64,000 nt of DNA from Dickeya chrysanthemi NCPPB 402 (lineage in GTDB: Bacteria; Pseudomonadota; Gammaproteobacteria; Enterobacterales; Enterobacteriaceae), in contig NZ_CM001974.1 of NCBI RefSeq assembly GCF_000406105.1, positions 1,713,507 to 1,777,506 on the forward strand, in the 5' to 3' direction. Below the pieces are notes generated by a model that ran no database searches, was not told the DNA's origin, and saw only the letters and a program-made list of their open reading frames with translations. Shown here one piece after another: positions 4,021 to 35,452 of the stretch; positions within the stretch are counted from its first letter, which is position 1; each line of letters begins with the position of its first letter. Position numbers and translations under genes: made by a program.

Positions 4021-4150
4021 GTTAGTTTTTCGCAAGAAAAACTTCGGGGTTGACGTTGACTTTGTTTCCGAAGGAAACGGTGTTAGCCTGCGGCAGGCAA
4101 CCGTCGGTAGACCCCACACACTGCGTAGCAGTGTATAAGTGGGCATTGTC
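4021..4150. other. Putative oriT of the MOBQ element
   Basis: Four short perfect hairpins lie in a row: 4025-4042 (arms gtttttc/gaaaaac), 4064-4078 (gtttcc/ggaaac), 4086-4098 (gcctg/caggc) and 4118-4134 (acactgc/gcagtgt). The last is followed directly by ATAAGTGGGCATT, which resembles the IncQ/R1162 nick region (inverted repeat followed by TAAGTGCGCCCT). It lies just upstream of the MOBQ relaxase gene, as oriT does in many MOBQ plasmids. The nick position is inferred, not shown. Confidence 0.5.
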
Positions 4151-7363: not shown

Positions 7364-9895
7364 TTACTTGCTTGCTTTAATTATAGGCTCGGAATAAATT
7401 GATTTCAGGCTTTCGATATCAAGTTTATGAGGACCAATGAATTTATGTATGATTGTTTCATCTAAAGAGTTTAGATCATATTCTTTGAACTCTTTAAAGA
7501 ATGATCTTACATTATCTTTTAGTAATTTAAGTTTTGATTTTCTCATAACACATATTTCTTCATTGAAATTGCTATGATATGAGAGGGTTCTCGTGTTTAT
7601 TATCATTATTTTCTTACACTTTACGTCACCATACTCTTCCGTAAACCAGCCGCAGTGATTGTTCATCTGACCAGCTTCTGTTTTATTAATTTCAGCTCTA
7701 TCCTCGTTTACTTCATTCTTGCATTCAAAAAGAAAGTATTGAGCATCTACATCTCCCCACAGGTTATCCGGTCCTTTTTTTATTTCCTTGTCAGGCCTTT
7801 GGCAGACAAATCCAATTGAAGTACCTAGGTTGTGAATGGCATCTTCAAATTTTTCTGATTGAATACCAAAAGAAATATTTTGCAGAATACCATCAACTGA
7901 AATCATTAAGGATTGGTAATCATTGTGTGCACTGATCCATCTGATAATCCTATTTGCTCGCGTTGCATTTATATTATTTATTTTTTTATAGACAACACCA
8001 TCTTTAGGTTTAAGTAGGTTACTATTTCTTTGGAATGCAGACTTTTGAATTTTATTTGATTCTACTTTACTCAAGCTGTATCTATATCTAGCTTGAAGTT
8101 GAAGGTACCAGCCTTTCTCCATTTCGTCTTCGGTATGTTTATCACAAATATCTTGCAATATAGCGCATGCCTTATCTATCTCTCCTTTTATAAATAAATT
8201 CTCAGCTTTGTACTCTAGCGTAATTAGATCATAAAGATTGTCTTTTTTATCATGAGTATCAATTTCGTTCATACTTTCAACATAGTACTCCTTCCATCCA
8301 TTATCACGTTGTAAAGATTTGTTAATTAACCCAATAAATAGCTTATCAACATCAGCTCCTTCTTCAATTTCATCTTTAGCAAATCCAACTATTTGGCTGC
8401 CTATATCAATTTGCATTTTAGTCTGAGGGGAAAAATATTTAGTCGTTAGTGGGCTTTTCAAAAACTGGACAAGATCTCCGCCTGTAATAATTATTACACT
8501 GTAATCTTTTTCACCTCTTACACTACGCCCCAACCCCTGCTCAACGCGTTGAGCTGTTTTTACATTAATAATATCACTACTTGGTCTACATTCCTCTTCA
8601 TAACGATCTGATAATGTTTCAGAATAAGGTTTGGAATCAATCACTAAAATACGACATGAGTTATCAGGAAGATCTATACCATCGTAGCGATTAGCAAAGA
8701 CGACCGCCTTGCTATAATTCCCCTTTTTTAATTGTTCTATACATTCATAAATTGTTTCCGTAGTTGCTACCGTGGCTCCTATGCGTTGAAATTGTTTTAT
8801 ATTTGAAAAGCTAGGTGTCAGACATACTGTACCGAAAGTTCGCTTTTCAAATGGCTGGAGTACCCAATTAATTATTTTTTCACGATCTAGTGATTCATCA
8901 ATTAATGATGGGATTAAAATCATTTTTTCACCTGACCAAACAAGATCAGGATTAACTAAAGGTTGTTTCACCGCCTCAACATCAAAACCTAATCCTTTTA
9001 TAAAAAAAGAATCATCTTGTGTTGTTGCAGACATAAGAAATCGATGCTTGGCTTTACTGAAACTACCAAAAGAATCTATGAGTGAAAAAATCGGTGAGAT
9101 TTCTAAAGACTCACCAGATATAAAGGCTTGGCAGTTATGTAATTCATTTTTTATTAGAGGCCAAATAAAAGATACTCTATTATCTTCGATGTTCTTAAGT
9201 AATTCTTGAGCAACTAGTTCTTTCTTATCGATCCATGACCAATATGAGATTGGAAGTAATGTATTGCTTCCAATACCACTTTCCATTTCTAAATAACTTC
9301 CTTCACCTTGCTCCCTGAGATCATCGGAGAATATATTTAAAATTGACGTATAAAGACTACTTTCTTTATCGACCTTAATTGTAAAGCTACTCTTAATTGA
9401 ATCAATACAAGCTTGCGAATCATCTAAAATAATTGAATTGACATTTATTGATTTACTGCCTAGCCCAAAAACAGTTTTTCCGTTAAATAACTTTTGAATA
9501 TGTGTTATTAATATTTTTCTTCCAGCTAGAAAGTCATCAGGTATTTGTTTGCTATGGTCAATTATACAATAAGGAATTCCAAATTTCTCTGCGTCTTTAA
9601 CTGCTTGTTTGGCTAAGTAAATATTGGGGCAAACATACATGCAAGGGCTGTTCGTTTCATTTATCTTTGACTGTAATATAAGCAATCCAATTAATGTTTT
9701 ACCTTCCCCTGTGTGTAATTTTATTATGTTATCCCTGTCATTTCTTTTTTTATTAAACCATTCTTCTAGAATAGTTTTTTGTGATGGACGCAAAGGGCCT
9801 GCTTCGCTACGTCTGTCCAGTGACTCATAAATATCGATAGGATTAATTCTTTTCGGAAGTTCTTTTTTCTTTAATTTATTTGTGAAGTCAATCAT
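7364..9895 (-). CDS. Superfamily 2 helicase with C-terminal nuclease-like domain
   Basis: An 843-residue protein that looks like a one-gene DNA-targeting machine. The helicase core has motif I HTGEGKT at residues 61-67, a Walker B-like LDDSQA near 158, motif III SATTQDD near 290 and an XPD/DinG-like motif VI EQGLGRSVRGEKDYSV near 455. After a helical, Lys/Glu-rich middle, residues of about 690-760 contain DVDAQYFLFECKNE followed by EAGQMNN, which fits a PD-(D/E)XK nuclease core (D, E-x-K, Q). The start at 9895 is chosen because AAGGAAT precedes it; the frame extends 10 codons further. The gene is AT-rich and stands alone. Helicase-nuclease fusions are frequent antiphage effectors, so a defence role is likely, but it does not match a named system that I can identify. 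Confidence 0.7.
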   Translation of the reverse strand: MIDFTNKLKKKELPKRINPIDIYESLDRRSEAGPLRPSQKTILEEWFNKKRNDRDNIIKLHTGEGKTLIGLLILQSKINETNSPCMYVCPNIYLAKQAVKDAEKFGIPYCIIDHSKQIPDDFLAGRKILITHIQKLFNGKTVFGLGSKSINVNSIILDDSQACIDSIKSSFTIKVDKESSLYTSILNIFSDDLREQGEGSYLEMESGIGSNTLLPISYWSWIDKKELVAQELLKNIEDNRVSFIWPLIKNELHNCQAFISGESLEISPIFSLIDSFGSFSKAKHRFLMSATTQDDSFFIKGLGFDVEAVKQPLVNPDLVWSGEKMILIPSLIDESLDREKIINWVLQPFEKRTFGTVCLTPSFSNIKQFQRIGATVATTETIYECIEQLKKGNYSKAVVFANRYDGIDLPDNSCRILVIDSKPYSETLSDRYEEECRPSSDIINVKTAQRVEQGLGRSVRGEKDYSVIIITGGDLVQFLKSPLTTKYFSPQTKMQIDIGSQIVGFAKDEIEEGADVDKLFIGLINKSLQRDNGWKEYYVESMNEIDTHDKKDNLYDLITLEYKAENLFIKGEIDKACAILQDICDKHTEDEMEKGWYLQLQARYRYSLSKVESNKIQKSAFQRNSNLLKPKDGVVYKKINNINATRANRIIRWISAHNDYQSLMISVDGILQNISFGIQSEKFEDAIHNLGTSIGFVCQRPDKEIKKGPDNLWGDVDAQYFLFECKNEVNEDRAEINKTEAGQMNNHCGWFTEEYGDVKCKKIMIINTRTLSYHSNFNEEICVMRKSKLKLLKDNVRSFFKEFKEYDLNSLDETIIHKFIGPHKLDIESLKSIYSEPIIKASK

Positions 9896-10121
9896 TTTTA
9901 TTCCTTTTTTAAAGTAACGAGGCAATAAAGATAATTTTATGTAGAAAATTAAGAGGCTGAATATAATTCATACCTCAAAACTGGACTTAAATCTACATTT
10001 TTTAATGTGTTTAGTTGCAGAAAGTAGGAGGGATTCGCGAATAGCTTTCGCTTCTGGCACAGAACAGCCTGTCCGATTAAGTTGCTCCCCATTGCATCCA
10101 ATACAACAGGGAGTCATTTGA

Positions 10122-10803: not shown

Positions 10804-10925
10804 ATTATCTTTCTCTTGCGTCAGCCGCTCGTCAGTTAACCCGTTAATTACATGTGGTTGTCTATTGTTTGATTCAATGTAATTGTTTATCTGTTTTTCA
10901 TCGTTCGGATGAAAAGGAGCTAAAC

Positions 10926-11480
10926 ATGGTGTTATTAAAAAACAGAAAATATAGGAAAGGGTTCTCTCTGCTTGAACTGCTTTTAGTTTTAGGTGTTATT
11001 GCCGGATTGGTTGTCAGTGCGTTTATTGTTTACCCCAAGGTTCAGGCAGCACAGCGTGTAGAAGCCGAAGTGAAAAATATTGCAGCAATACAAGCAGGAG
11101 TCAAGTCAGTATATGCATCAACGAATTCTTATTCTGGGATGGTTAATGGTTCTATGTATAAAGCTGGGATATTTCCAGACAACATGGTAAAGAGGTTCGC
11201 TCTTGGGTTTTATATTGTAAATTCGTGGAGAGGGAATGTTGTCTTGGCATCTGACGATACAGGTCCAGCAGGGACACCCGGAAGTGCATTTACTATAACT
11301 TATAACGGGGTGCCTGCGGCTGAATGCGCTAGATTTATTTCTGCTACAGCAGCAAATTTTTATATCATACAAGTAGGTTCAGTAACGGTTAAAGATACTG
11401 ATGGGAATATCAATATCAGCGACGTGTCTGATGCATGTAGTGTGAGTGAGAATAACATATTAATATTCACATCGTTATAG
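10926..11480 (+). CDS. pilS: Type IV prepilin, PilS-like major pilin
   Basis: A 184-residue type IV prepilin like PilS of R64/SPI-7 thin pili. After a short basic leader it has the prepilin peptidase site and hydrophobic stalk KGFSLLELLLVLGVIAG (processing after Gly, mature N-terminal Phe). The globular part has a pair of Cys residues (in AAECARF and SDACSVSE) that could form the C-terminal disulphide loop typical of type IVb pilins. The ATG at 10926 has AAAAGGAG upstream; the longer frame to 10854 adds no homology. The companion pilV follows. The peptidase, ATPase, secretin and inner membrane genes of the pil operon are absent from the window. Confidence 0.85.
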   Translation: MVLLKNRKYRKGFSLLELLLVLGVIAGLVVSAFIVYPKVQAAQRVEAEVKNIAAIQAGVKSVYASTNSYSGMVNGSMYKAGIFPDNMVKRFALGFYIVNSWRGNVVLASDDTGPAGTPGSAFTITYNGVPAAECARFISATAANFYIIQVGSVTVKDTDGNINISDVSDACSVSENNILIFTSL

Positions 11481-14444: not shown

Positions 14445-15722
14445 TTATCCCTTCTGCCCAAACTCAAACGGCCTAACCATACCGTTGCTGTTAGCATCCA
14501 GAAAATCAGCCCACCATTGCAGCATAAGACGTCGTTGTTGAAGGTGTTTAGCTTTATGAGTATATGCAGCCCTGACGTTGTTCTTCTCCATATGACTCAT
14601 CTGTAGTTCAACAACATCTTCGGACCAGATCCCTGATTCAATCAAAGCACTACACGCAAGGGTACGAAAGCCATGACCGCATAGGTCAGTTTTGGTGTCA
14701 TAGCCCATTTTACGCAATGCTTTGTTAATGGTGTTTTCACTCATAGGTTTAACGGCGTCATAACAACCTGTGAAGATAAAACCGTTATCACCACCCACAT
14801 CGTAGGTGAGTGTTTTTATCTCTTCAAGAATTGATACTGCCTGACTGCACAGTGGGACGTAATGCTTTCTTCGCATTTTTGCACCACGGCCGGAATGCTT
14901 GATCCCTTCGATAACGTCACGCTGTTCCGGGATAACCCATAAGGCACTTTTAAAATCGATTTCTGACCAGCGGGCAAAGCGGAGTTCACTGGAACGGACA
15001 AACGTCAGAAGGTTGAGCTTTATCGCCAGTAATGTGAGCTTGCTGCGTCCCTGATAGCCTGCAACACGTTCTAGCAGAGCAGGTATCTCCTCCAGTTCGA
15101 TAGCGGGGCGGTGCTCCGTCTGTGGCTTCTGAACAGCACCTTCAAGGTCATAGGCAGGATTAAAACGGATCATTTTCTGTTGAACAGCATAACGCAGGAT
15201 AGCAGTAGCGTATTGCTTTACTCGCATAGCGATTTCAAGGAAACCGAGAGTTTCAATCTTCTTGATCGGAAGCAGCAGATCACCCGTATCCAGCTCACCA
15301 ATATCTGTGTTGCCGATTTCAGGGAACAGGTAGGTTTCAAGACGTGTCCAGACTGAACGCTGATAATCTTCTGACCATGTGGTTTTGGTGGCAAACCAGC
15401 TTTTGGCAACGGTTTTGAAAGCGCGGGTGTTGTTACGCTTCTCTTGAATGGTTTTGTTGTCAGCCTGCTTTTTAGCGCTAGGGTCAATTCCAGAAACTAG
15501 CAGCTTTTTTGCTTCATCCCGGCGTTGTCTGGCATCAGCCAGAGAAACAGCAGGATAGACGCCGATGGAAAACACTTTCTGTTTCCCTTCGAAGCGGTAG
15601 CCTAACTGCCAGTATTTGGAACCGTTGGGATGTACCAGCAGGTAGAGGCCGAACCCGTCAGTAAGCTTTACCGCCTTTTCTGACGGCTTAGCATTTTTTA
15701 CTTTAGTATCAGTAAGTGACAT
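14445..15722 (-). CDS. int: P4-type tyrosine integrase (asn-tRNA element)
   Basis: A 425-residue phage P4-family integrase that recombines the element with the chromosome. The N-terminal arm-binding domain has the P4 pattern (MSLTDTKVKNAKPSEKAVKL, DGFGLYLLV, SIGVYPAVSLADARQRRDEA). The catalytic domain shows the first Arg in FVRSSELRFARWSEID, the HGFR box (H-x-x-R), a conserved His in MSHMEKN, and the nucleophile Tyr in AAYTHKAK. The ATG at 15722 has GGAGGG just upstream; the frame extends 22 codons further without homology. The tRNA-Asn-like 17-bp repeat lies 180 bp upstream, the expected place for attP in this family, so this enzyme probably uses the asparagine tRNA genes. Confidence 0.93.
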   Translation of the reverse strand: MSLTDTKVKNAKPSEKAVKLTDGFGLYLLVHPNGSKYWQLGYRFEGKQKVFSIGVYPAVSLADARQRRDEAKKLLVSGIDPSAKKQADNKTIQEKRNNTRAFKTVAKSWFATKTTWSEDYQRSVWTRLETYLFPEIGNTDIGELDTGDLLLPIKKIETLGFLEIAMRVKQYATAILRYAVQQKMIRFNPAYDLEGAVQKPQTEHRPAIELEEIPALLERVAGYQGRSKLTLLAIKLNLLTFVRSSELRFARWSEIDFKSALWVIPEQRDVIEGIKHSGRGAKMRRKHYVPLCSQAVSILEEIKTLTYDVGGDNGFIFTGCYDAVKPMSENTINKALRKMGYDTKTDLCGHGFRTLACSALIESGIWSEDVVELQMSHMEKNNVRAAYTHKAKHLQQRRLMLQWWADFLDANSNGMVRPFEFGQKG

Positions 15723-15860
15723 GACGGTTCCCTCCGATTGCTGGTAAAAACGAAATCGAACCAGCTTTACCAGTATTTTTACCAGCAAAAGGGTATGGCT
15801 TCGAGTGTTTTTGGATGAACGAGGGCGAACCTGAAGAAGGGGATAACCAATTGATAAAAA

Positions 15861-19100: not shown

Positions 19101-20777
19101 TCACTTTATTGCTGCTGCTATAAACGGTGTAACATAACTAAAATACTCAGATTGAGCGGTTCTGTGAACATCCCAACGTTTGGCGTTAGCAGGACGTTGT
19201 CGCTCGTCTGCATGCGTTAATATCAATCGTCTTTTCGCACGTGAAACACCAACGAAAAATGCACATCGATTCTCATCTTGGTCACCAAAGAAAATCTCGT
19301 TTTCAACCGCCATTATAATTACAGAATCGAACTCTAGTCCTTTGCTTTTGTGAATGGTCAGAATCCGGACTGCTTGGTCATCCGTAAATCGCCCGAGCGC
19401 TTGCGGCAAATCTGATTCAATTTTAAGCAACTCTTCAATCCGTGCTTTGGTATCACGAAAAACTTCCTGTAGACGTTTGTGGGATTCGTAATCAGGTGAT
19501 AAGGCTACGATCGTATCAGAGCCAATATGCTTTAAAAACGCCTTCACAAACTTCCACCAACAAGAAAAAGGTGAATCAAGCTGTTCAGCACTAGCTGCTT
19601 CTTTGCGCTGTTTTTTTAACAAACGATCAAAGTCCTTTCGCGCACTGGACTGTACTTCTTCATCGGCAAAAGGAATCAACTGATTCATCAAACGGATCCA
19701 AGCCTTAGGTTCACGCTTTCCATAGAGGCATGAAAGATAATCTACGATTAAACGTGCAGCGGGCTCGACAGTAATATCCTGCATTTGCTGTTCATTTCGA
19801 TATGGGATACCACGTAATTCCAGCTCCATCATTAAATGGTCAGCATAGAGATCTAACTGTTTAGAAACTAAGACAGCAATCTCGGCTGGTGGTAATTGTT
19901 CTTTATTGATCCAGTTATTAATAATGTTCGCTAAATAAATGGCTTCTTCTTGGCTGTTTTCGAAACTCTCGACATGAATCTCACCTTCGTCACTATTCAG
20001 TTGTTCATCTGGCATGGCAGAGGTCGGATCAAGCTCCCGAATTATTTCGTTCTGAACTTTTAGTAATTGCGGTTTTGATCGGAAATTACGGTACATGTTT
20101 AGTGGTACTGCATTAAAATCATTAGTAAATGTTTGAAAAATCCCATCCATCGCTCCCGCCCAACCCATGATTTTTTGCTTAGTATCGCCTACAGCAGTGA
20201 GGCGGATTTTAGTCCCTAGAAAAGCAAGCTTAACTAATTCATACTGCAAATTTGTACAATCCTGAAACTCATCAAGAAAAATATCGCTGTAAGCCTGACG
20301 AATTGCATTACGGGCAATATTTGAGTTTTGCAATATCTTGATAGCCAATGGAACAAGATCACTAAACTCTATTTGGGTGCTAGATATACCGATTTTCTTT
20401 TCAACGATCGTATAGCCGGAATCCAATGCATCTCTTCCTTTCAGGACTGGTCTAAAACGATCGATTATTCGCTTGGCAAATGCATGGAAAGTATAGCTGT
20501 CGAAACGGGAGGCAAGGTCTGCACCACAGCGCCGTTCGACGCGCTCTTTTAAATTTCTACTTGCATCAACCTTGAAGGAGATAGCGAGAATCCGCTTCGG
20601 ATACCGACATGTACCTGTCCGTAATAGGAAATCTGCCCGCTGTGCAAGCATTTCAGTTTTACCAGCGCCAGGACCCGCGGTAAGAGCCAAACAACGTTTA
20701 CGGGCTTTTGCTGCTCGTTTTGCATTTGGTTCCAGAGTTAATCCATCGGCGGGTTGCCATGCTTCAATAGAAATCAT
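19101..20777 (-). CDS. gajB: UvrD/Rep-like helicase, GajB-like
   Basis: A 558-residue superfamily 1A helicase. Motif I is AGPGAGKT at residues 34-41, motif II DEFQDC lies near 170, the Ia-like region and TAVGDTKQKIMGW (motif III-like Gln) follow, then motif V HKSKGLEFDSVI and motif VI FVGVSRAKRRL near the C-terminus. It starts within the stop of the OLD-type gene (ATGA overlap at 20774-20777), so the two are coupled. An OLD-family TOPRIM nuclease followed by a UvrD-like helicase is the Gabija arrangement, in which GajB senses or activates on DNA ends and GajA cuts DNA. It is a little longer than the founding GajB (about 494 residues). Assignment to Gabija is by gene pair and domain order. Confidence 0.8.
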   Translation of the reverse strand: MISIEAWQPADGLTLEPNAKRAAKARKRCLALTAGPGAGKTEMLAQRADFLLRTGTCRYPKRILAISFKVDASRNLKERVERRCGADLASRFDSYTFHAFAKRIIDRFRPVLKGRDALDSGYTIVEKKIGISSTQIEFSDLVPLAIKILQNSNIARNAIRQAYSDIFLDEFQDCTNLQYELVKLAFLGTKIRLTAVGDTKQKIMGWAGAMDGIFQTFTNDFNAVPLNMYRNFRSKPQLLKVQNEIIRELDPTSAMPDEQLNSDEGEIHVESFENSQEEAIYLANIINNWINKEQLPPAEIAVLVSKQLDLYADHLMMELELRGIPYRNEQQMQDITVEPAARLIVDYLSCLYGKREPKAWIRLMNQLIPFADEEVQSSARKDFDRLLKKQRKEAASAEQLDSPFSCWWKFVKAFLKHIGSDTIVALSPDYESHKRLQEVFRDTKARIEELLKIESDLPQALGRFTDDQAVRILTIHKSKGLEFDSVIIMAVENEIFFGDQDENRCAFFVGVSRAKRRLILTHADERQRPANAKRWDVHRTAQSEYFSYVTPFIAAAIK

Positions 20778-22698
20778 TCAGGTAATTCTCCAAGTTTGGC
20801 AATAACGGCATCAACTAGTCTATTCAGAGACTTTGGCATCTTCGCAATTAATTCTTTGTCGCTTAGTTTCGCTAAAGCATCAATGTGCGCGGCTGGCTTA
20901 CTACCTAATTTAAAACGTTGATGGTAAGTAACGAACAAACTCTGTTCATCTACACTATATTGAGAAACATTGTTATAGCTTTTTCCAAGCACTGCTTTTA
21001 TTGTTGACTCGTCCGGCTCCTCTTCTTCAACGCCATAAGCTTCGGGATAAGCTAGCAACATGGAAAAGTCCAAATCCATAGGGAAGGAAAAAAAACAGAT
21101 CTGTTTTCAAGTTCTTCAAAAATGTCTTGAGTGCCTTCATTAAAAAAATGGTGAGTTCTTACTGGCGTAGCTTCATCATTCCATCTTGTAATTTTCCATT
21201 CTGTAGGAAGTATTTTCTCCGGCTCAAATGCAGCAAGCTGATCGTTAACGTATTTAATTCGCCCCCATCCTGCGCCATACCGAGCTACATCCAGATCAAG
21301 CAAAGTCAGATAGGGAATCTGCAGTGCGGAAAGCAATCGCCAGAAATGATTTACATGCCTACCACCTAACGGTGCTACCGTAATGGCTGATTCATCAACA
21401 GGAGTACCTTTAACCCGGAGCAAACGCGGCAGTATGATTTCTTCACTATCTCCTTCGCCAAGCACAACCAAGCGTGAGAAATAGATCTCAGGGAATGCTT
21501 GTATAGCCTCTCTCACAAATTTATGTGCTTCATCTGCTTTAGGTGGCAATTTGATACACGTAATTCGTGTTTTTCTTTCCTCTGTAAGTCGTAGGTATCG
21601 TATAAAATTAGGATCAACTCTTCGCAACATTGATGGTGCATGAGTAGCAATTAAGGCTTGCGCATCAATACTCTTTGCCATGGTATTCAAGGCACTGACG
21701 ATACGTCCCAAGTAATGGGGAGAAAGGCTATTCTCCGGTTCTTCCACTGCGACCAGCGTAAAAATCGGAGGGCGCAATTTGTCGGGATCAAATGTAACAT
21801 CTTCCTCTGCGAGCACAGCTCTACCGATCGCTTGAGATGATAGAACCAGAGAAAGATAAAGCATCGATTTTTGACCATCACTCAACCTAGAGAAATCAAC
21901 AAGCGAGCCATCATGGCCGGGAGTAAATGAAACCGATAAATGGCGCAGCAACGCTTCAATCTCCGAAGCCACAAATGTAATTTTAGGATCAGAGAAAAAT
22001 TTGCCTTTGTGTAGGGTTGCCCAAGTTAATTTCAAACTTTCACTGAAAGCATTGATGGAGGGGTTAGCTGCTAGGCTCTCGCTTATCTGGTTGGTTAATC
22101 CCCTAATCGCATTACGTTCATCATCCCAACGTACAGCACGAAGCAAACGTCCGAGTAATGCGTTCGCACCGTAAGCAATATGGTCTGCAGGATCTCGTCT
22201 GGCTGGCAAATAGTGAATTTGGATATTATTACGCTCTGCTCGTGTTACTTGAGCTGTGGTTTGAGGTGAACTATCAGCATTGACATCCAAAACATATACT
22301 AAGTTTTCTTCAATATCCCAATCCATTCCCATAGTTGCAGTGAGGCGAAAACGCACACGTGGAATACCTTCTGGCTCATCAAGTCGCATATGACCAAAAT
22401 GAGGAGCCACGGTACTGTTATCCTCATCCTCAGCAAGCTCGTGAAACAGGAAGTCAGCTTCAATCCACAACTGTCTCTCAGGAGGAACTTCACCTTCATC
22501 AAAAGGGACATGGAAATCTGATCGTTGGACACGACGCAATGTTGGATCAAACGCAAAAAGTCGACATAAAGCCTGAAGTACTGCTGTTTTACCTGATCCA
22601 TTAGGACCAATGAGATAAGTAACATCTTCCAAGCTCAATTCGGTTGGTACTTTGCCAAAAGACTGGAAACCAGATAATCGAATTGCCTCAAGCTTCAT
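20774..22698 (-). pseudogene. gajA: OLD-family ATPase/TOPRIM nuclease, GajA-like, frameshifted
   Basis: An OLD-type protein with an ABC ATPase half (Walker A GPNGSGKT at 31-38, signature-like LSDGQKSMLYLSL, Walker B VAVEEPENSLSP, switch His in IATHAPSMLRR) and a TOPRIM half (VVLGEGDSEE near 415, LLDLDVARYG near 468). This is the Gabija nuclease GajA layout. The main frame (22698-21052) runs off track after a run of eight T (minus strand, about 21088-21095) and ends in a short unrelated tail. A second frame (21079-20774) carries the missing end, PMDLDFSMLLAYPEAYG and 90 more residues. One extra T would join them into about 641 residues ending in the ATGA overlap with gajB. It could be a true mutation, polymerase slippage or a sequencing error. 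Confidence 0.75.
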
Positions 22699-24969: not shown

Positions 24970-26025
24970 ATGAGTACAACCATTCAAATCCTTCACGCTT
25001 CACATGGTGACTGCCTTTTCCTTCGCCATGAGCAGGATGGATCCACCTTCAATCTATTGATTGATGGTGGGCCCGCCGAAACATTCGGTCAATTGTACGG
25101 ATATGCTAAGCCCCTTCGTTTGCTTCTTGATGAATTACGAGAGAGAGGTGAGTTTGTTGACTTGGCTATTATTACTCATGTCGATGACGATCATATTGGC
25201 GGTATCCTAGAAGGCATGTCATACGATGACTATCTGCCTTCCCTAGTTAAAGAATTTTGGTTTAATTCATATGGGCTAATATCATCTGTTGTCGTTGAGC
25301 CAGATGGTAAAAAGAATGAAGTGTCAGGTGTTGCAGGAGCTGAAGTTAAGACCAGCATCTCCCAGGGTGTAACCCTGGAGGAAAAACTCAGCAAACTCAA
25401 TTGGTATAATCAGGTAATTCATAATGAAATTCCTAAATTAATTAGGTCGGGATTTGAGTTCACGATATTATCTCCATCTGTAAAGGCACTCCAGCGACTT
25501 GGCAAAGCATGGGAAAGAGAATATTCACAAGCTGACAAGAAAACATCAAAAGCAGAAAGTGATCATAAGTTTCCTTTTTCTCATTTTTTCTGCGCAGATC
25601 GATTCAAATCAGATCGGTCAGTGCCGAATGGTAGTTCGATAGCATTTATATTGAACATTGGAGATATAAATTTTCTGCTTTTGGCGGATTCGCATGCAGA
25701 CATAGTAGAGCAAAAACTAAAATCATTAGGTTACAGCCCAGAGAATCCGCTTGAGTGCAGTATGGTGAAAATCTCGCACCACGGTAGTAAAGGTAATACA
25801 AGCCAGAGTTTGCTTTCACTGTTATCCTCAAAAAGATATGTTATTTCGACAGATAGTTCTATATTTGGACATCCGGATAAAAGAACAATTGCTAGAATTT
25901 TAAATGCAAATGACGGAAATAATGTATATTTCAATTATGAATCAGTTATTAGAAATATTCTATTGCCTGAAGATTCTGCATATTCTGACAGATTACATGT
26001 TTGTGAAGAAAAAATGGTACTCTAA
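24970..26025 (+). CDS. MBL-fold (ComEC-like) metallohydrolase of the ABC-3C locus
   Basis: A 351-residue metallo-beta-lactamase-fold enzyme like the C-terminal domain of ComEC. It has an early NLLIDGGP turn (about residues 28-35), the metal site THVDDDHIGG at 69-78 and KISHHGSKGN near 267-276, followed by STDSSIFGHPDKRT. Enzymes of this group hydrolyse nucleic acid or nucleotide phosphoesters. Insertions between residues 90 and 200 are not recognised. AGGGAG precedes the ATG. The stop TAA touches the ATG of the protease gene, so it heads a tightly coupled operon of four genes. In ABC-three-component systems such an enzyme is a likely effector, either toxic nuclease or signal hydrolase. Confidence 0.8.
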   Translation: MSTTIQILHASHGDCLFLRHEQDGSTFNLLIDGGPAETFGQLYGYAKPLRLLLDELRERGEFVDLAIITHVDDDHIGGILEGMSYDDYLPSLVKEFWFNSYGLISSVVVEPDGKKNEVSGVAGAEVKTSISQGVTLEEKLSKLNWYNQVIHNEIPKLIRSGFEFTILSPSVKALQRLGKAWEREYSQADKKTSKAESDHKFPFSHFFCADRFKSDRSVPNGSSIAFILNIGDINFLLLADSHADIVEQKLKSLGYSPENPLECSMVKISHHGSKGNTSQSLLSLLSSKRYVISTDSSIFGHPDKRTIARILNANDGNNVYFNYESVIRNILLPEDSAYSDRLHVCEEKMVL

Positions 26026-27309
26026 ATGTCCATACATGAATATATTAGAAAACATGCTGTTAAAGTAAATGATGGGAGTGGTGTATTGATTCAATGCCTC
26101 TCCGAGGAGTTTTCCTATATCCTAACTGCTAAGCACACTCTAAAATCAGAGAATAGGGTTGAGACTTGGGATGGTCAGCTACTCACTATTTTAGAGGTTT
26201 ATCCTCACAGTGAGGATTGCGCCTTATTAAAAACTCCTTTGGTCAGTGGCTTACCTCTAGTTAGATTTAAAAGCAATAAGTTTGACCACAAAAGTGAAGC
26301 GATTTTTGGGGGATTTCCTGGTTATCGTGCAAAAGAAGCCACGGCAGAGACAAGATTTAAAACTTATGAGGGTAAAATAAAGCAACTCGACAAAGCGTTT
26401 TATTTAACATTAGAAGGACTGCCACCGAAAGCCCAAATTGAAGGAGCTTCAGGCGGCGGGGTATATCTTATTGTGAATGAAAAACCATATCTTATCGGGG
26501 TCGAGATCGAGATGGCCGGGCCACAGCCTCAAGAGCCCGGAGTAGTCTTATGCTACGATATGGCTCGATTTGATGAAATAGTGAAGGAAAATGATCTTCC
26601 GCCAATACTTCCCTCATTTTTGTTTTGTTTCAGCAGAATCAGGTCTAATACATTCAACTACACTCTGAATAGTCCAAGAGTACTCAACGCATTACGCAGA
26701 CAACTCCACAACAAAGCTGAAGGCTTGGTTCACGATGGTATTCCTAAGCCTTATGAACTGTTAGCACTCTACGATAAAGGGTTGATCGTTAATGGTCAGC
26801 CTGACGAGGCCATGTATGACTTACAACTCTGGTCTGCTTATGCCGAGTTCTTTGTTCTGCATTCTTTGCTAAATGACGTAAAAGTAATGGACCTTAACTA
26901 TCTAAAAAGCATGGAAAGAACAAGTAGGTTCGTTTACTCGCGAAGCAAAGATGCTTGGCTTCGAGATCTGAATAATATCATATCCTCTGCCAGGAGGTTA
27001 CTTGATCACGGAGGTGTTTTGGTCGTTTCCAGCGGCGATGTGGGAAGTCAACCGATTGCAGATAAAAGCTTTATAAAATATTTAGTCGAAGATATTGGGG
27101 CTCCCGCTGCTGAATATGAATACGAAGATGGTGCACGCATCGACATGGGGCTTGAGAGCGGCGATGTTCCGTTTAGTTTTGCACTTTTAGGCAGCCTTCA
27201 TCGTGAATGTATCACGAGAAATGAACAAGCATTTCTGGGACTGAACTCCGCTCAGTTGATGGAACTTTTTAAGGATAAATACGCCGATGAATTTAACAAG
27301 TGCAAATAA
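26026..27309 (+). CDS. Trypsin-like protease with ABC-3C-type C-terminal domain
   Basis: A 427-residue protein. Residues 1-190 form a chymotrypsin-like serine protease: His37 in TAKHTL, Asp64 in SEDCALL and Ser142 in GASGGGVY make a complete catalytic triad. Residues of about 200-427 are mostly helical, with a Trp/Tyr/Phe-rich core and the segment GGVLVVSSGDVGSQ, and fit the adapter domains that link effectors to the SMC ATPase in ABC-three-component (Lamassu-like) systems. No signal peptide is present, so it acts in the cytoplasm. It begins at the base after the MBL stop and overlaps the middle-component gene by 23 bp. The likely logic is that the ATPase detects foreign DNA and unleashes proteolysis; this is inference from the architecture. 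Confidence 0.78.
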   Translation: MSIHEYIRKHAVKVNDGSGVLIQCLSEEFSYILTAKHTLKSENRVETWDGQLLTILEVYPHSEDCALLKTPLVSGLPLVRFKSNKFDHKSEAIFGGFPGYRAKEATAETRFKTYEGKIKQLDKAFYLTLEGLPPKAQIEGASGGGVYLIVNEKPYLIGVEIEMAGPQPQEPGVVLCYDMARFDEIVKENDLPPILPSFLFCFSRIRSNTFNYTLNSPRVLNALRRQLHNKAEGLVHDGIPKPYELLALYDKGLIVNGQPDEAMYDLQLWSAYAEFFVLHSLLNDVKVMDLNYLKSMERTSRFVYSRSKDAWLRDLNNIISSARRLLDHGGVLVVSSGDVGSQPIADKSFIKYLVEDIGAPAAEYEYEDGARIDMGLESGDVPFSFALLGSLHRECITRNEQAFLGLNSAQLMELFKDKYADEFNKCK

Positions 27310-27834
27310 TGATCGCATTCGGGAGCTAAAAGAAAACTTTCCTAATTTTGCATTCGATTTGTTTACGGCCGGAAACTCTGAGTTTGTCAGCTGTATTGCA
27401 TGTTGGGTTGAAAGCCCTGAAGTTTTAGAACACACATGGAATGCAATACAAAATGTGGTAGCGCTGCGTTACAAGTCGGAGAGAAAAATTGCCCGATGGA
27501 ATGTCTACATAGCCTTCTTTTGCAGAGAACATGTAAGTCGATCGCTCAAGTTACTGATTGAAAATGATAAATTTACAGCTAGAAAATTAGTTTTCGATTC
27601 ATGTTCAGAGAATCACTTTTGGAAGAAAAAGAATTTGCTCTAGAGCGTCTGAATTATGAAATCTTTGAAGTTAATTTGACAGTTGGTCAAAGTTTTGGTG
27701 TGAAAGTCGAATACACGCCATCATCTCTCGTGTCCTACCTTAGAAATTATTCTGCTGCGACAGCAGAGGGTAAATTAGAGATGATTGACACATTACTAAT
27801 GGAGCATGGCATTCATGAAAATAAAGAGAGTTGA
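27287..27834 (+). pseudogene. ABC-3C middle component, split by frameshift
   Basis: Two overlapping frames make up this gene. The first (27287-27643) encodes 118 residues with VALRYKSERKIARWNVYIAF and DKFTARKLVFDS, a pattern that I associate with middle components of ABC-three-component systems. The second (27601-27834) begins in another frame with MFRESLLEEKEFAL and supplies an acidic C-terminus. One added base near 27600 would give a single protein of about 182 residues. The first frame overlaps the protease gene and the second overlaps the SMC gene, as expected for one gene filling the gap. The middle component is thought to bridge effector and SMC ATPase; if the break is real the system may be inactive. 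Confidence 0.6.
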
Positions 27835-30800
27835 GGTTCAGGCTTTCAGAGCTTACCTAGAGAAAGCCAATGGGACATTTGACTTTATGGTGCCGGGCCA
27901 AGATGGTATTGACGTTCCAGCAAACTTTATTTCTCTCTATGCTCCTAATGGATTTGGGAAAAGTTCATTTTATGATGCAGTAGAATGGGCTATGACTAAT
28001 GGATCGGAGCGTTTCAGCGATGGGGTATTTGAAGCTGCTGCACGTGGTTCGAAGCAGGATGATGAAGCGCTTCGAATTCTGCGAAATATTGAAGCGCCGA
28101 GTGATCTTGAAACTTCCGTTTTAGTTTCTACAACAGTCCAGGACTTCTCGCGTAGCCCAGGCACTATTAGAAAAAATAGTTTCGATGTCGATTTTAAGGA
28201 AAAGAAGTTGGTCGAAGGAGCCGAGGCCTATCGAACAATATTTCTTTCACAAGATGCGATAGATTATTTTATCCGTGGTATAAACCCTGAAGACCGTTAT
28301 CAGGCATTCGTCAGCATATACGGTGAAGAAACCGAAATACAACGCAGAGAGGTACAGGCAGCATACTTGGGCGTGGGTGAGCAGATTGAGAAATGCAAAA
28401 ATGCTGAAAAAAAATTGTGTATTGAAATTGAAGCCCCTGTTGACAATCATATTGTTGAGAGGTTCTTTTATGTAGCTAATGAATTAAGGGAGTCTGGGAT
28501 TTTTCTTCAGGCATTGCCGGAGCAAATGCACGATACAAAGCTTGATGCGTTATCTGAAGAGTTGGTGACATTAGCAGCCAAAGCCCAGCACGATCTAGTT
28601 TCAATCGCAACAAGAGAGCAAGCATTAAATGAGCTTACTGAAGGATTGAGCAGCAACTCTACAGACTCAGCAGAATTGGTTCTCCAGCTTGCTAAAGAGC
28701 AAGCTTTGTTAGATGCGCTAGGAAAAATAGCTACAAGAGATGCTTTGCTACAAGTACAGGTCGGAAATGTAGCTGAAATTAATCGCTATGAAAAAGATCT
28801 TCGCCGTAATCAGTCCATACACTCTGCCGGAGAAAAATACCGCTTACTCTACGGTAAAAAATTGGGGCTTACACGAGAAGTAGAAGCTGAAAATTTGCAG
28901 CTCAGAACGATCGAAATTAGGGTACAGCAGCTAAGCACTCAAAAGAGCGAGTTACTTAAACGTCTTACGGATCTGCAGCATCGAAAAGCTACTTGGGATT
29001 TATTAAAATCCGGTGCCGCTCGTATATATGAAAGTATAGAGAAAACCACCCAAGATCAGATTAATCTTAATGCTGAATTGAGTTCTGCTTCAACAGAGTT
29101 AACTTTGCTTTCCACAAAGTTGAAAGAGCAAACTGATCTGCTTGTCGCAATAACTAAAATCCCAGAAAATGTTTACGATCTAGGTATCAGTGACTTGGCG
29201 TTGCTTGGTATCAGCGTTGATACTTACTCTGCGCTACGAGCTGCTAGGGCTGAAAACTTGCTCATTGAGAGCAGACTTGCCAGTATCAATCTCACAATAC
29301 AAGATCTCGAATCGCAATCCAACGCTTTTGGGAAGCTAGCAGCTGTTGCGGAGGAGATTCTAACGACTCATCCTGGGCATAATTGTCCACTGTGTCAAAA
29401 AGATCATGGTACTTTTGAAGCCCTCAAGGAAGCGATAGATAGCAACAGCAAGTTGAAAGGTATCCTCAAGGAAAAATCTGAGCAACGAAATACATTAACC
29501 ACCAACTTGGTAAAGTCTAAAAATCTGTTATCAGATAAGATTTCAGAGCTTTTGGTGCAAAGATCCGAGGTGATAAATAGGCTTGAAGTTGATATTCGCT
29601 CTAAAACAGATGGCATATCGTCTGTGACGATGAAAAAGTCTATTCTTGAGTCAAGACTCAATTCGTTGCAGCAAGAGTTGGTATCAAATAAAGCTATAGT
29701 TCTCAACTTGTCGTCTGATCAGCTATCCATAAAGGTTAATGAAGAGCTTAAGGGATTTTCGGCCAGAATTGAAACGAGTCAAGTTGATGTAAATAAAATA
29801 GAAAAAGAACTTGAGGCCCTTAGTTTGAAAAGGACCTCTGTAATCGCGAACATATCAGAAATTAATACGAGTCTAATAGGAATTGATGCCGATCAAGATT
29901 ATGCTCTAGTCCTCAACTATCTTAAAGAGTTTAATTGTGCTCTATCTGGTAACGATGATGATTTTCAGACTCTGGCTCTGAATATAAAACTCGAAATAGA
30001 TGGTCGTAAAGCTTTATGGTCAGAAAATGATAGTGCTATTAAATCTATTAACGATGGGTTGAAGAAAAACGATCTTCCCCTAGATAACCTACAAATAAAA
30101 AATCAACTTGAGCTTTGTGGTGAAAGAGTCACTGAATTACGTAGTAGAATAGAATCTTACAATTCAAAATTCATATCGCTTATAGGTATTTCACCAGTAG
30201 AATATCCTGATTATGAAGACCGACTAGTCGCAGCCATTAAGAATGTACTTACTCAAAAACGAAGCACAAATATCTGCGACGAAAAGTTAAGTGAGTTGAG
30301 AGCTCTACTTGAAGCTCTGACACCAGTTATCAATAGAGAGCTTTGTAGGAAGGAAATGGAGTCAATCGTTGAACGACGAATTGGTTATGAATCCTTAAAA
30401 GAAAAAATTGGTGCCGAACTAATCCTTATTAATAATGTGCTAGAGCGTCAACTTGACACCGTTTTTCAAACTGATTTGATTAATGAAATTTATAGAAAGA
30501 TCGATCCTCATCCTAATTTCAGTCAGGTGAAATTTGCTTGTGGATTTGGGCTGAAGAACAGGCCTACCCTAAATATATTGGTAAAAGATAAGGAGTCCGA
30601 GAGAGAAATTTCCCCTCTACTGTACTTTAGCTCAGCTCAGTTGAATATTTTGAGCTTGAGCATTTTTCTAGCGAGGGCGTTGAATGCAAAATCTCCAACC
30701 GGGCAGCTACTTGATCTTATATTAATTGATGATCCAATTCACTCTATGGATTCAATCAATGTTTTGTCCACTATTGATTTGCTTAGAGGGATTGCTCTTA

Positions 30801-30937
30801 ATCATAATAAGCAAATAGTAATTTCTACACATGATGAAAATTTTTACGAACTACTTAAGAGAAAAATTCCCGCTGGATTGTGCCAATCTAGATTCCTTAA
30901 GTTAAAGAGTTTAGGGCAAGTTGAGGTTGATGATTAA
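27815..30937 (+). CDS. lmuB: Rad50-like SMC ATPase of ABC-3C/Lamassu-like system
   Basis: A 1040-residue SMC-type ATPase. Walker A is APNGFGKSS at 43-51; long coiled-coil arms occupy about 180-500 and 545-900; the hinge has a Rad50-type zinc hook, CPLCQKDH near residue 524; the C-terminal head has a signature-like SSAQLNILSLSIFLARAL and Walker B LILIDDPIHSMDSINV near 968, followed by a switch His in ISTHDEN. It acts as a dimeric DNA sensor like LmuB/DdmC. ATG 27815 (MKIKRVE) has GGAG 10 nt upstream and is preferred over 27806. It closes the four-gene operon begun by the MBL gene. The symbol follows Lamassu naming by similarity of architecture only. Confidence 0.82.
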   Translation: MKIKRVEVQAFRAYLEKANGTFDFMVPGQDGIDVPANFISLYAPNGFGKSSFYDAVEWAMTNGSERFSDGVFEAAARGSKQDDEALRILRNIEAPSDLETSVLVSTTVQDFSRSPGTIRKNSFDVDFKEKKLVEGAEAYRTIFLSQDAIDYFIRGINPEDRYQAFVSIYGEETEIQRREVQAAYLGVGEQIEKCKNAEKKLCIEIEAPVDNHIVERFFYVANELRESGIFLQALPEQMHDTKLDALSEELVTLAAKAQHDLVSIATREQALNELTEGLSSNSTDSAELVLQLAKEQALLDALGKIATRDALLQVQVGNVAEINRYEKDLRRNQSIHSAGEKYRLLYGKKLGLTREVEAENLQLRTIEIRVQQLSTQKSELLKRLTDLQHRKATWDLLKSGAARIYESIEKTTQDQINLNAELSSASTELTLLSTKLKEQTDLLVAITKIPENVYDLGISDLALLGISVDTYSALRAARAENLLIESRLASINLTIQDLESQSNAFGKLAAVAEEILTTHPGHNCPLCQKDHGTFEALKEAIDSNSKLKGILKEKSEQRNTLTTNLVKSKNLLSDKISELLVQRSEVINRLEVDIRSKTDGISSVTMKKSILESRLNSLQQELVSNKAIVLNLSSDQLSIKVNEELKGFSARIETSQVDVNKIEKELEALSLKRTSVIANISEINTSLIGIDADQDYALVLNYLKEFNCALSGNDDDFQTLALNIKLEIDGRKALWSENDSAIKSINDGLKKNDLPLDNLQIKNQLELCGERVTELRSRIESYNSKFISLIGISPVEYPDYEDRLVAAIKNVLTQKRSTNICDEKLSELRALLEALTPVINRELCRKEMESIVERRIGYESLKEKIGAELILINNVLERQLDTVFQTDLINEIYRKIDPHPNFSQVKFACGFGLKNRPTLNILVKDKESEREISPLLYFSSAQLNILSLSIFLARALNAKSPTGQLLDLILIDDPIHSMDSINVLSTIDLLRGIALNHNKQIVISTHDENFYELLKRKIPAGLCQSRFLKLKSLGQVEVDD

Positions 30938-31941: not shown

Positions 31942-33357
31942 TCAAATATTTTCATCATCTGACTCGTGAGTATATTTAAACACAAGACTATCTACTGTTG
32001 ATACTGGCATGTGTGACGGTTGAATCTTGGTTTGACTTTTCAAAATACTATGCTCAAAATAGCGTTTGCAAATTATCTTACCATTTATAGGAAGCCAATG
32101 TGTGGCCTCTGGAAATAGCGCAGGACTGATAGGGTTTTTCGCGTTTGGATTATGAAAAATTTCTATTTCCGCAGTCCAAGGCTCATAATCATAAGGTTTC
32201 CATAAACAACGGTATTCTTCGCTGGTAACATCCATGCTGAAGGGAATACCACGTAAAGCCCCTGGAGAGTCATCGGCAAACTCACCAATTCTCACATACC
32301 GATAGCCCTCTATTAAAGCGCCGGATGAAATAGGGACTCTGCTCAGCTTGGACAAAGTAGCTGCGTTAGAAAAAATGACTGCCGAGAGTGTTATGTTATC
32401 GTGTGATAAAAATAAGCCAGTACGGATTTTGGGGTCGCTTGAAAGGCAATCAACAATTTCTGCTTCAACGACAACCTTCCCATCTTTCTCTTTTTCTCTG
32501 CCATATAATCCATAGAGATAGGTAATCAGAGCCTCACGGCTCCACATCATGGAACCTGGAGCGTGAAAATCCGCTATTGCAATGGCAAATGGCTTACCTT
32601 CGACATGAGTCAAACTGGTGTAATTTTTTAGCAACTTATTCCGTAAGGTCCGCGCGTAGCGCTCAGCTGCAACTCCCAACACTCTTTCTCGTCTATCTAA
32701 AGGAACTTTTCCTGGTCCTGCAGTAGCATGGTCGTAACGTTCTGTCGGATTAACTGTTACAGCCTCTACCCATGCTTCTCCCCCCGCTCTATTCGTCACG
32801 TGAAAATCAGGAGAGGCATGATCTTGAGTGACTAACATTCCCTGTTCACGGAAACTAGCCAGAAGGATGGCTTCCCAGAGTCGGGTGTGGAAATTATCAG
32901 ATTGGCACTCTTTCGCCCAGTGAGTGTCTGGATTAGGCATTGCAAGATACAGTTGATTCAGCATCCATGCGCCAGGTTCCCTACAAGGATGCCCGAGCAA
33001 CTTGAAGATGCCACTTGGTTCTCCGCCCTTTAAATCCCATAGCGGTGCACGTCTACGAGAACCCGGAGGCAATGGAACGCGGCTCGCTGATTCATCGCAC
33101 GCTTGGCTGATGATTGCGAAAGCTTCTTCTTTGCTAAATGAATTTGGTTCCCTGCGTAGTACTGCCCATACATCGTCATCACGACGACGCATTATGAGAA
33201 TGCCATGTTTTCCGCTATGGCAATTACGAGTCAATGCACATACTGTCAGGTGATCGTTACTCCCCCATGCGCTCACAGGCGGATCATCACCAAATCCCAT
33301 ACCGTTAGGCAGCGCTAAGGCATATACACCAAAAAGGCCAAAAGAAACTGGAGTCAT
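31942..33357 (-). CDS. Unknown protein with degenerate nuclease-like motif
   Basis: A 471-residue soluble protein with no name that I can assign with confidence. Around residues 180-200 it has SPDFHVTNRAGGEAWVEAVT, which looks like the beta-hairpin core of a PD-(D/E)XK fold (PD then E), but the usual Lys is replaced (VEAV instead of xExK), so activity is doubtful. The middle has a helix-rich segment with many Arg and the C-terminus is Pro/Trp-rich. It ends 250 bp from the methyltransferase gene and points the same way, with no clear ribosome binding site at 33357. It could be a restriction-like partner of that methyltransferase or a stand-alone defence protein. Confidence 0.5.
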   Translation of the reverse strand: MTPVSFGLFGVYALALPNGMGFGDDPPVSAWGSNDHLTVCALTRNCHSGKHGILIMRRRDDDVWAVLRREPNSFSKEEAFAIISQACDESASRVPLPPGSRRRAPLWDLKGGEPSGIFKLLGHPCREPGAWMLNQLYLAMPNPDTHWAKECQSDNFHTRLWEAILLASFREQGMLVTQDHASPDFHVTNRAGGEAWVEAVTVNPTERYDHATAGPGKVPLDRRERVLGVAAERYARTLRNKLLKNYTSLTHVEGKPFAIAIADFHAPGSMMWSREALITYLYGLYGREKEKDGKVVVEAEIVDCLSSDPKIRTGLFLSHDNITLSAVIFSNAATLSKLSRVPISSGALIEGYRYVRIGEFADDSPGALRGIPFSMDVTSEEYRCLWKPYDYEPWTAEIEIFHNPNAKNPISPALFPEATHWLPINGKIICKRYFEHSILKSQTKIQPSHMPVSTVDSLVFKYTHESDDENI

Positions 33358-33613: not shown

Positions 33614-34656
33614 TCATTTATCACTGCATCTTCCTGCATCACCAGAACGAACCATGCTACTACGTGCTGCTTCAATACGCCTGCGAGCAATTTTCACATA
33701 ATCCTCTTCTCGGTCAATACCGATAAAACAGAAACCTTCCATCGCCGCAGCTCTGCCGGTACTTCCACTCCCCATAAAGGGATCAAGTACAGTGCCGCCC
33801 GGAGGAGTAATCAGGCGACAAAGGTAACGCATCAGCTCGGTGGGCTTTACACATGGATGATTGTTACGCTCACCACGATCTTTTTTGCTGGCTTTCGCAC
33901 AATAAAAAAACCGACTGGCGCTGCTAATTTCTGCCTGTTGAGGAGTATCCGGGAACATAGCAAGTACTTCATCACTGCCGTCATGGATAAGATTGGCAGG
34001 CCATCGGGGTTTCCTTGCCTGGCGATACCCCCATCACCTTTATTTCTGCCTCGCCACATATGGTTAGGATCGGAACCCCCCGGTCCATTTGGATAATCAT
34101 AGGGAGATTCCCCCTCTGCCAGAGGAATCCTGCATTCTCTGACATTCAGAGCGCCGGTACCATAAACGAGAACGTTCGATGCCATGGATCCTCTGAATGG
34201 CTTACGGGCAAGGGTAATCGGCTCCAGTGCTGGTTTTAACGTGTGATGAGATTTAGGAAATCCAGAACCGTATACCCAGCCCAGCATTCCGTCACGTCCA
34301 AATGCAGCGTCCAGCAATTTGAGCTGGTCCGGCGACAAACTTTCAATGAGGGTCTGAGCAGCATTGCTGGTCTCGTAGAGAAATACGATCATGTCACGTA
34401 TTTCAAAGCCCGCATCCTCAATACGCGCTGCCATCCGGTGTTGAGTACGGGATCCCGCGAAGGACAACAGATGACCACCGGGTTTGAGTACGCGTAGACA
34501 TTCTTCCCAGATGGCTTGTGCAGGAACATCATAGTCCCATGTCTTACCCATGAATTTAATACCATAGGGCGGGTCGGTCACTATGCTGTCCACAGAGTTG
34601 TCCGGCATACTGAGCAGTACGTCAAGGCAGTCACCATGAGTCAAAACGTCATACAT
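33614..34656 (-). pseudogene. N4/N6-type DNA methyltransferase, frameshifted
   Basis: A DNA methylase of the N4/N6 type with TDPPYGIKFMG (motif IV) near the start and LDPFMGSGSTGRAA (motif I) near the end, hence the beta-class order. The first frame (from ATG 34656) runs into unrelated sequence after GNPDGLP, and the second frame (33614-33958) begins again with MFPDTPQQAEISSASRFFY. One added base in CCAAT near 33990 would give PNLIHDGSDEVLAMF, the expected joining sequence, and a protein of about 347 residues. Such lone methylases in conjugative elements modify the DNA to evade host restriction. The start overlaps the relaxase stop by 8 bp. Confidence 0.78.
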
Positions 34657-35452
34657 GGCGTTCCCTCCCGTCATCGTCACCCACTGATGAAGAGGGGCCA
34701 CCCTGTTTATCACTGACACTATTTTCCAGTTCATCAAGGGTGCGGAAGAGAAACATCTCGCGGTGCTTCGCATCAAACGGGACGGGAACGTTGTTCCTTA
34801 TCACCGTTCTGATGCTGCCAAACAGCCTGACCAGCGATTCTTTCGTTTTATCATCCGGCATAACATACATCGCATAGTGCCAGCGTCCGGCGTCGCTGGC
34901 AGCGAGATGACTGTTAATAATGCTGATGTAACGGGCGCGGGTTTTCATCGACCGCTCTGTTTCCACCGCAACGATGGCACCGCTGCTTAAGGTAATAATG
35001 CCATCCGGTCGGTGCCGGACACTCAGGTACCGCGCTATAAACTCTCCCCGATCGCCATTAAGCCAGCCTGTGCCGCCTTTTTCCTCCAGGGCGATCCTGA
35101 CCCGCTGGTTTAACAGTCGATGTTCCAGCGTCGAGTGTCTGAGTTTTCCCGGCTCAAAATAGGCGGGGAAAACCTTGTCATTAACGCTAACCACCATTGC
35201 CAGTCCCTGCATGGTGATCCCCCACAATGATTTTTTTCCGGTCAATACCGGGTATTCATGTTTATTCAGGAAGCCCATCGCAACTGCTTTATTGAGCAGG
35301 TTATACATCGCATGGTTATGTTTTCCTTTATATCCGACCACTCTTTTTAAAGTGCGGAAATCAGAGAATGTTTCCTCCTTGAGAAAATACAGTAATGCCT
35401 GCATCCTCCGCTTTGCGACTTCATTTCTTTCAGCAACGTTATGGATAAGCAT
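34649..35452 (-). CDS. mobC: MOBC-family relaxase (CloDF13 MobC-like)
   Basis: A 267-residue protein matching the MOBC relaxase pattern. An N-terminal winged-helix-like part (LLYFLKEETFSDFRTLKRVV, NLLNKAVAMGFL) is followed by RHRPDGIITLSSGAIVAVET with ERSMKTRARY, the D...ExE core of the replication-relaxation / PD-(D/E)XK-like fold that CloDF13 MobC uses to nick oriT without a His triad. It lies directly after its coupling protein, the same pairing as mobB/mobC in CloDF13 and in ICEKp1-type elements. ATG 35452 is chosen because GAGG sits 6-9 nt upstream; the GTG at 35464 has no ribosome binding site. Confidence 0.75.
   Translation of the reverse strand: MLIHNVAERNEVAKRRMQALLYFLKEETFSDFRTLKRVVGYKGKHNHAMYNLLNKAVAMGFLNKHEYPVLTGKKSLWGITMQGLAMVVSVNDKVFPAYFEPGKLRHSTLEHRLLNQRVRIALEEKGGTGWLNGDRGEFIARYLSVRHRPDGIITLSSGAIVAVETERSMKTRARYISIINSHLAASDAGRWHYAMYVMPDDKTKESLVRLFGSIRTVIRNNVPVPFDAKHREMFLFRTLDELENSVSDKQGGPSSSVGDDDGRERHV

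Follow-up and report, generated by a model that had tools for sequence, protein, structure and literature searches.

A Lamassu hydrolase–protease operon with a split middle gene in Dickeya chrysanthemi, and a proposed cut-site code shared by its two enzymes

Dickeya chrysanthemi NCPPB 402 carries, at 24970–30937 on the forward strand of the 64,000-nucleotide stretch of DNA analysed here (the window), four components encoded head to tail: a metallo-β-lactamase (MBL)-fold enzyme, a trypsin-like protease, a middle component and an ATPase resembling the structural maintenance of chromosomes (SMC) proteins. Judged by its sequence, the locus is a Lamassu hydrolase–protease operon, a known type of ABC-three-component (ABC-3C) system. 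The evidence taken together makes it probable that an SMC-like sensor turns on the protease, that the protease cuts two loops of a predicted MBL pro-nuclease, with Thr128 and Thr192 the likely residues before the cuts, and that cell DNA is destroyed as a result, with the present copy likely silent. The operon is ordinary for its kind, yet it points to a testable rule. The new element is a proposed cut-site code, predicted from MBL–protease pairs, in which both loops of the MBL enzyme carry residues of one class, matched to a position in the S1 pocket of the protease. Should a single pocket position determine the residue cut in the loops, one could predict from sequence how well coexisting pairs are insulated and what module swaps would do.

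The operon stands far beyond chance, because the PADLOC matches reach E 8e-109, 5e-99 and 9e-215 for its three whole genes and E 1e-31 for the first piece of the middle gene. All features lie on the + strand. The LmuA hydrolase (24970–26025; 351 amino acids; PDLC03854, E 8e-109), a predicted gated pro-nuclease, also matches Pfam Lactamase_B above the cut-off. The LmuA protease (26026–27309; 427 amino acids; PDLC03855, E 5e-99) combines a trypsin-like portion, approximately residues 1–191, with a C-terminal CTD4 domain at residues 176–395 (E 7e-35); a Trypsin_2 match at residues 17–147 falls slightly below the cut-off, and its closest named homologues belong to Yersinia enterocolitica (88%) and to Enterobacter soli (85%). 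LmuC is divided between two frames. The first piece (27287–27643; 118 amino acids) matches positions 1–111 of the 180-position profile PDLC03873 (E 1e-31) and MComp1 (E 1e-11), while the second is an open stretch in another frame (27583–27834; first ATG at 27601), recognised by tblastn with residues 100–181 of an intact relative and by a family profile (E 2e-28); alone, it matches nothing in PADLOC or Pfam. LmuB (27815–30937; 1040 amino acids; PDLC03865, E 9e-215), an SMC/Rad50-like ATPase, contains Walker A, Walker B and a zinc-hook-like CPLC motif at residues 524–527 (29384–29395), and its start is more likely to be 27815 than 27806 because of comparison with an annotated relative.

CTD4 and MComp1 are Pfam domains defined for ABC-3C systems. 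The window thus holds an LmuB-type ATPase, an LmuA effector with an ABC-3C C-terminal domain and an LmuC gene, the last not in one frame. An earlier reading of this DNA (the original prediction) had assigned it to the ABC-3C/Lamassu group, and the PADLOC calls of LmuA, LmuA, LmuC and LmuB, together with the alignment of the protease C-terminal part to CTD4, agree with that assignment. Its SMC protein with a zinc hook is likewise recovered, and of the four adjoining genes that it listed, the MBL, protease and SMC genes stand, while the middle component occupies two frames rather than a single intact gene. It had known no described subtype with exactly this set. That view does not hold: PADLOC models both enzymes as LmuA, and Tuck et al. 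2025 (PMC12799240) list Lamassu as a carrier of the enzyme pair, so an undescribed subtype was discarded as an explanation. Known Lamassu hydrolase–protease systems (PDLC03854, PDLC03855, PDLC03873 and PDLC03865, with CTD4 and MComp1) have the same four families in the same order, and differ from the window, where LmuC is split between two frames.

The MBL enzyme and the protease both retain their catalytic residues, as the original prediction had claimed. The metal-site motifs THVDDDH and HHG occupy residues 69–75 and 270–272 of the MBL enzyme, and His37, Asp64 and Ser142 of the protease are all invariant in an alignment of 47 sequences. The structure model of the MBL enzyme matches the ComEC MBL domain 9ic4 (E 6e-12). 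Its predicted local distance difference test score (pLDDT) falls below 50 only at residues 111–127 and 184–194, and the model therein predicts the two disordered insertions in the MBL domain that characterise gated nuclease–protease pairs. Thr128 and Thr192 are each present in 120/120 homologues (the best 120 of 1366), though the loops are otherwise variable. Gating loop 1, defined by low pLDDT and alignment, comprises residues 111–128 (25300–25353), with a predicted cut at Thr128/Ser129 (Thr128 codon 25351–25353). Gating loop 2, defined by low pLDDT and conservation, comprises residues 184–194 (25519–25551), with a predicted cut at Thr192/Ser193 (Thr192 codon 25543–25545). Cleavage at both predicted sites would yield pieces of 14.1, 7.4 and 17.8 kDa.

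The interpretation of these loops draws on related immune systems. In Hachiman and AVAST, the protease cuts the gating loops of an MBL pro-nuclease next to isoleucine; the study that showed this also extended the gated-nuclease model to Lamassu and showed such pairs to be mobile among immune systems that are otherwise unrelated (Tuck et al. 2025, PMC12799240). Loop-motif isoleucines lie at 129–136 and 230–237 in Avs1a relatives (n=4), near the reported cut sites 134/234, and loop Ile/Val residues lie at 116–125 and 215–226 in HamM or HamM-like relatives (n=3), near the reported 118/218; among these, L064 was called Avs1a by a model score above the cut-off, and L065 and L066 HamM or HamM-like by resemblance. 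When the window enzyme is aligned to Avs1a and HamM loops, Thr128-Ser129 and Thr192-Ser193 replace the Ile-Ser/Gly of the relatives. Because threonines hold the aligned positions in place of the conserved loop isoleucine of HamM- and Avs1a-like cut sites, the enzyme pair of the window is not assigned to the isoleucine-cut type. Its protease is predicted to cut the MBL enzyme, with Thr128 and Thr192 as the likely residues before the cuts.

The systems with comparable enzyme pairs differ from the window in other respects. Hachiman HamM/protease-HamA (Tuck et al. 2025) has a HamB helicase sensor, isoleucine cut sites and a HamA domain instead of CTD4. AVAST type 1 Avs1a/Avs1b has the same enzyme pair as the window, with two Avs1a loops bearing Ile-Ser-Ala motifs, but uses a STAND sensor; the Avs1a model gives the window MBL enzyme 194 bits against a cut-off of 420, which sets the window apart from that type. 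Canu caspase–nuclease loci (Tuck et al. 2025) also join a gated MBL nuclease to a protease partner, but have a caspase instead of a trypsin, glycine at the proposed cut sites and another gene order.

A search of the genome collection with a profile of 47 protease sequences gave 49 loci; because these stem from 80 stretches matching two patterns, the sample leans to recognisable relatives. The MBL gene lies directly upstream of the protease gene in 49/49, and LmuC and LmuB are also present in 43/49. This is the co-occurrence that the original prediction had proposed to check, and the idea that the MBL gene is a chance neighbour was accordingly discarded. Among the six loci without LmuC and LmuB, two end inside the protease (L040, L044), two extend only ~2.5 kb beyond it (L036, L050), and two have long flanks with no match to either gene (L037, L046). 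The system is rare near the host, being found in 1/97 host relatives, the host itself. A Pseudomonadota scan found it in 8/398 genomes, host included, and added few pairs. A first contig scan with a single sequence (40 stretches) and a scan of viral contigs with the protease profile (6 stretches) yielded no relative, and none was found in E. coli genomes at high identity. Phages searched with the MBL protein gave one unannotated record, and plasmids searched with a Bacillota protease gave 5 records, none of which was added; four of them duplicated records from other searches, and the fifth, from Haliscomenobacter, was also found by the MBL protein. Separately, the viral contig L072 (IMGVR_UViG_2843675664_000007) holds a system nearly identical to L054 of a Providencia plasmid, with the same loops and an LmuB match of only 219 amino acids.

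Both loops of an MBL enzyme tend to carry the same class of residue. The loop table holds 90 MBL proteins, 79 with a partner protease, of which 71 were counted. The 11 not used are L084 (a repeat of L066), L088 and L090, which adjoin caspases, L085, L094 and L098, which adjoin subtilisins, and L077, L080, L083, L091 and L093, from which no partner was extracted. From the 79, L050 (protease cut short), L072 (the near-copy of L054) and L069, L070, L071, L075, L076 and L082 (no long loops) were dropped. The loop-1/loop-2 residues of the 71 pairs are Thr/Thr in 50, Ile/Ile in 12, Met/Met in 3, Ile/Val in 3, Val/Val in 2 and Thr/Ala in 1. Examples of the classes are an intact Thr-type operon, complete from the MBL gene to LmuB, on plasmid pS19501 of Shewanella baltica OS195 (L053), an Ile-type Avs1b of Cupriavidus necator (L060) and a Met-type protease of Bacillus taeanensis (L052). 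An automatic motif count, independent of any residue set by hand, finds the pair's own class in loop 2 in 70/71; across 10,000 shuffles, which take no account of kinship, the mean is 46.8 and the maximum 58. On a tree built from the MBL core without the loops, 5 changes are required for the loop-1 residue and 9 for the loop-2 residue; the joint state also takes 9, so every loop-1 change can share a branch with a loop-2 change. The predicted threonine cut sites are common to most Lamassu pairs sampled and are not special to the window.

The residue class of the loops is associated with protease residue 160, 18 residues past Ser142, which is glutamate in the window (codon 26503–26505) and is proposed to line the S1 pocket. 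The strand that holds it corresponds to chymotrypsin 211–216, in which residue 160 would be 213. This residue is Glu or Gln in 50/51 Thr-type pairs and Phe in 3/3 Met-type pairs; among Ile/Val-type pairs, 17/17 have Leu, Ile, Val or Met there. In a scan of 187 protease columns over 70 pairs, from which the single exception (L037) was excluded, column 160 is the only one without a residue common to Thr-type and other pairs; the two columns that come next, 163 and 169, belong to the same wall. Restricting the scan to Lamassu (56 pairs) leaves 2/186 columns that separate fully, 160 and 169. These patterns suggest the cut-site code, in which both loops would belong to the same class (Thr, Met or Ile/Val), as set by the S1 position (Glu/Gln, Phe or aliphatic, respectively), and the Lamassu branch to which this operon belongs would have moved from Ile to Thr, which would prevent cross-activation between pairs that coexist in a cell. 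We regard this code as evenly poised between holding and failing, and the matched loops as better supported than the link to the pocket. In their main text, Tuck et al. 2025 (PMC12799240) use neither 'threonine' nor 'methionine', and no statement of threonine cleavage or of a class code was found in the texts consulted, which include neither the Tuck et al. supplement nor the paper of Huang et al.

Two other observations concern loop classes. Gated MBL enzymes in L085, L094 and L098 lie beside S8 subtilisin-type proteases; by eye, each of their two loops has a Leu followed by a small residue, which may represent a fourth class. An unannotated MBL–trypsin pair of the Ile/Ile type occurs in E. 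coli KE47 (L096, NZ_CP141089.1), in a record of 4.94 Mb that is classed as a plasmid.

Under the proposed mechanism, LmuB with LmuC would sense an invader DNA structure, as the Lamassu literature suggests. Sensing would lead the LmuA protease–CTD4 subunits to assemble, by analogy with protease-HamA, for which others have shown a need for oligomerisation. Glu160 would lie in the S1 pocket of the protease, whose predicted cuts in the MBL enzyme directly follow Thr128 and Thr192, and the opened enzyme would then degrade DNA and halt the infected cell, as others have shown for HamM. Several observations weigh against this reading and the code attached to it. The loop-2 residue was assigned by hand in 21/71 rows, 25/71 loop-2 sequences also hold a motif of another class, and the cut positions were placed through an alignment of variable loops. 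L037 breaks the rule, with Thr/Ala loops and Leu at residue 160. Because the Thr type arose once on the tree, the link between threonine and Glu/Gln amounts to one transition, and a sign test, with one independent pair, has no power. Cleavage of a Lamassu pair is not shown in the texts consulted, and the frame split in LmuC, on which the silence of this copy depends, may be an assembly error. L037 itself (uncultured Aquimarina, 6924–9689) pairs an MBL enzyme with an LmuA-like protease of 562 amino acids that lacks CTD4, and neither LmuC nor LmuB was found close by.

Two other accounts of the enzyme pair were weighed. The protease might cut the MBL enzyme elsewhere than at Thr128 and Thr192, with Ile104 or other loop residues as the true sites. 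Ile104 is nearly invariant (118/121 aligned sequences), and isoleucine is the cut residue reported by Tuck et al. (PMC12799240); however, Ile104 lies in a predicted helix (101–107) outside the low-confidence loop, the loop isoleucines of Avs1a and HamM align with Thr128 rather than with residue 104, and a cut there would leave the invariant Thr192 and the Met/Met and Val/Val pairs unexplained. We consider such other sites unlikely, and Ile104 was set aside on its helix position and on the alignment. Far less probable is that the MBL enzyme and the protease are parallel effectors acting on cell targets with no proteolytic activation: the single effectors of other Lamassu systems, described in a review (PMC10586767), are compatible with this arrangement, but the strict pairing in 49/49 loci, the loop motifs matched across pairs and the activation mechanism shown for Hachiman and AVAST (PMC12799240) all speak against it. 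Sequential use of the two enzymes, which the original prediction had suggested as a two-step effector, is the best reading, since the same pair works in this manner in Hachiman and AVAST (PMC12799240).

Whether this copy functions depends on LmuC, which is split between frames at 27287–27643 and 27583–27834. An E. cloacae plasmid relative has four annotated genes and an LmuC of 182 amino acids, of which tblastn places residues 1–115 in one frame of the window and residues 100–181 in another. LmuC measures 179–184 amino acids in 27/27 relatives found, and in one of them (P0050) an intact LmuC, matching the LmuC model over 176/180 positions, is nearly identical to the window pieces. As LmuC is split between frames, the copy is probably silent, unless the break is an assembly error; the split therefore weakens the claim that the copy works and leaves the family assignment unaffected. 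According to the same review (PMC10586767), LmuC is missing from some Lamassu systems. Broken Lamassu genes also occur in other genomes, with LmuB in two frames (L007), the protease in two frames (L014) or an LmuB match of 90 amino acids only (L022).

As a control on the reality of the breaks, E. coli K-12 proteins were matched to two host-chromosome stretches, using 66/72 and 44/47 coding genes of the E. coli stretches after exclusion of cut and very short ones. In the first stretch, 47/66 proteins match in one frame, 18 have no match and tufA has a weak match (28% identity); in the second, 26/44 match in one frame, 17 lack a match and nlpE aligns over 136/236 residues in one frame (42% identity). 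In these two housekeeping stretches, 73 orthologues thus lie in one frame, and none is split between frames. This result bears on the possibility that the breaks are assembly errors and the operon intact and active, a minority possibility that we nonetheless take seriously. The assembly is a draft of 21 contigs (4.70 Mb in all, with the window on a contig of 4.67 Mb), a nearly identical intact LmuC exists, two neighbours of the operon (gajA and a methyltransferase gene) are split too, and runs of at least 5 equal bases are denser in the island (99 in 18 kb, versus 175 in 52 kb and 197 in 53 kb in the controls). Against it, all 73 orthologues lie unbroken on the same contig, and runs of at least 6 bases show no enrichment in the island (22 in 18 kb versus 64 in 52 kb and 50 in 53 kb). 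Real decay is thus favoured over assembly error. A functional split, with LmuC made as one protein through programmed frameshifting, would fit a second frame that is open and still matches the family along its length, but it is highly improbable given that LmuC is a single protein in 27/27 relatives and that the unrelated gajA and methyltransferase genes are also split.

The surrounding region contains further defence genes. A Gabija system adjoins the operon at 19101–22698 (−), with GajB whole (E 2e-274) and gajA split, as 21052–22698 matches model positions 1–538 of 640 and another frame, 20774–21106, matches positions 534–640. The DNA methyltransferase gene at 33614–34776 (−) also lies in two frames, 33847–34776 and 33614–33958, matching model positions 11–134 and 176–257 of 260. 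If the breaks in lmuC and in these two nearby defence genes are real, they would describe a defence island on a mobile element that is being switched off gene by gene. A MobA/MobL relaxase, a PilS-type pilin and a tyrosine integrase are encoded at 2536–4146, 10854–11480 and 14445–15788, and VirB/VirD-like genes were recognised by eye at ~35–50 kb of the window; together, these genes suggest an integrated mobile element with a defence island. A candidate defence gene at 31942–33357 (−) resembles PADLOC PD-T7-1 (E 7e-69) and PD-T7-5 (E 8e-35), and an 853-amino-acid protein encoded at 7364–9925 (−) matches the candidate defence family PDC-S28 over its full length with 1060 bits.

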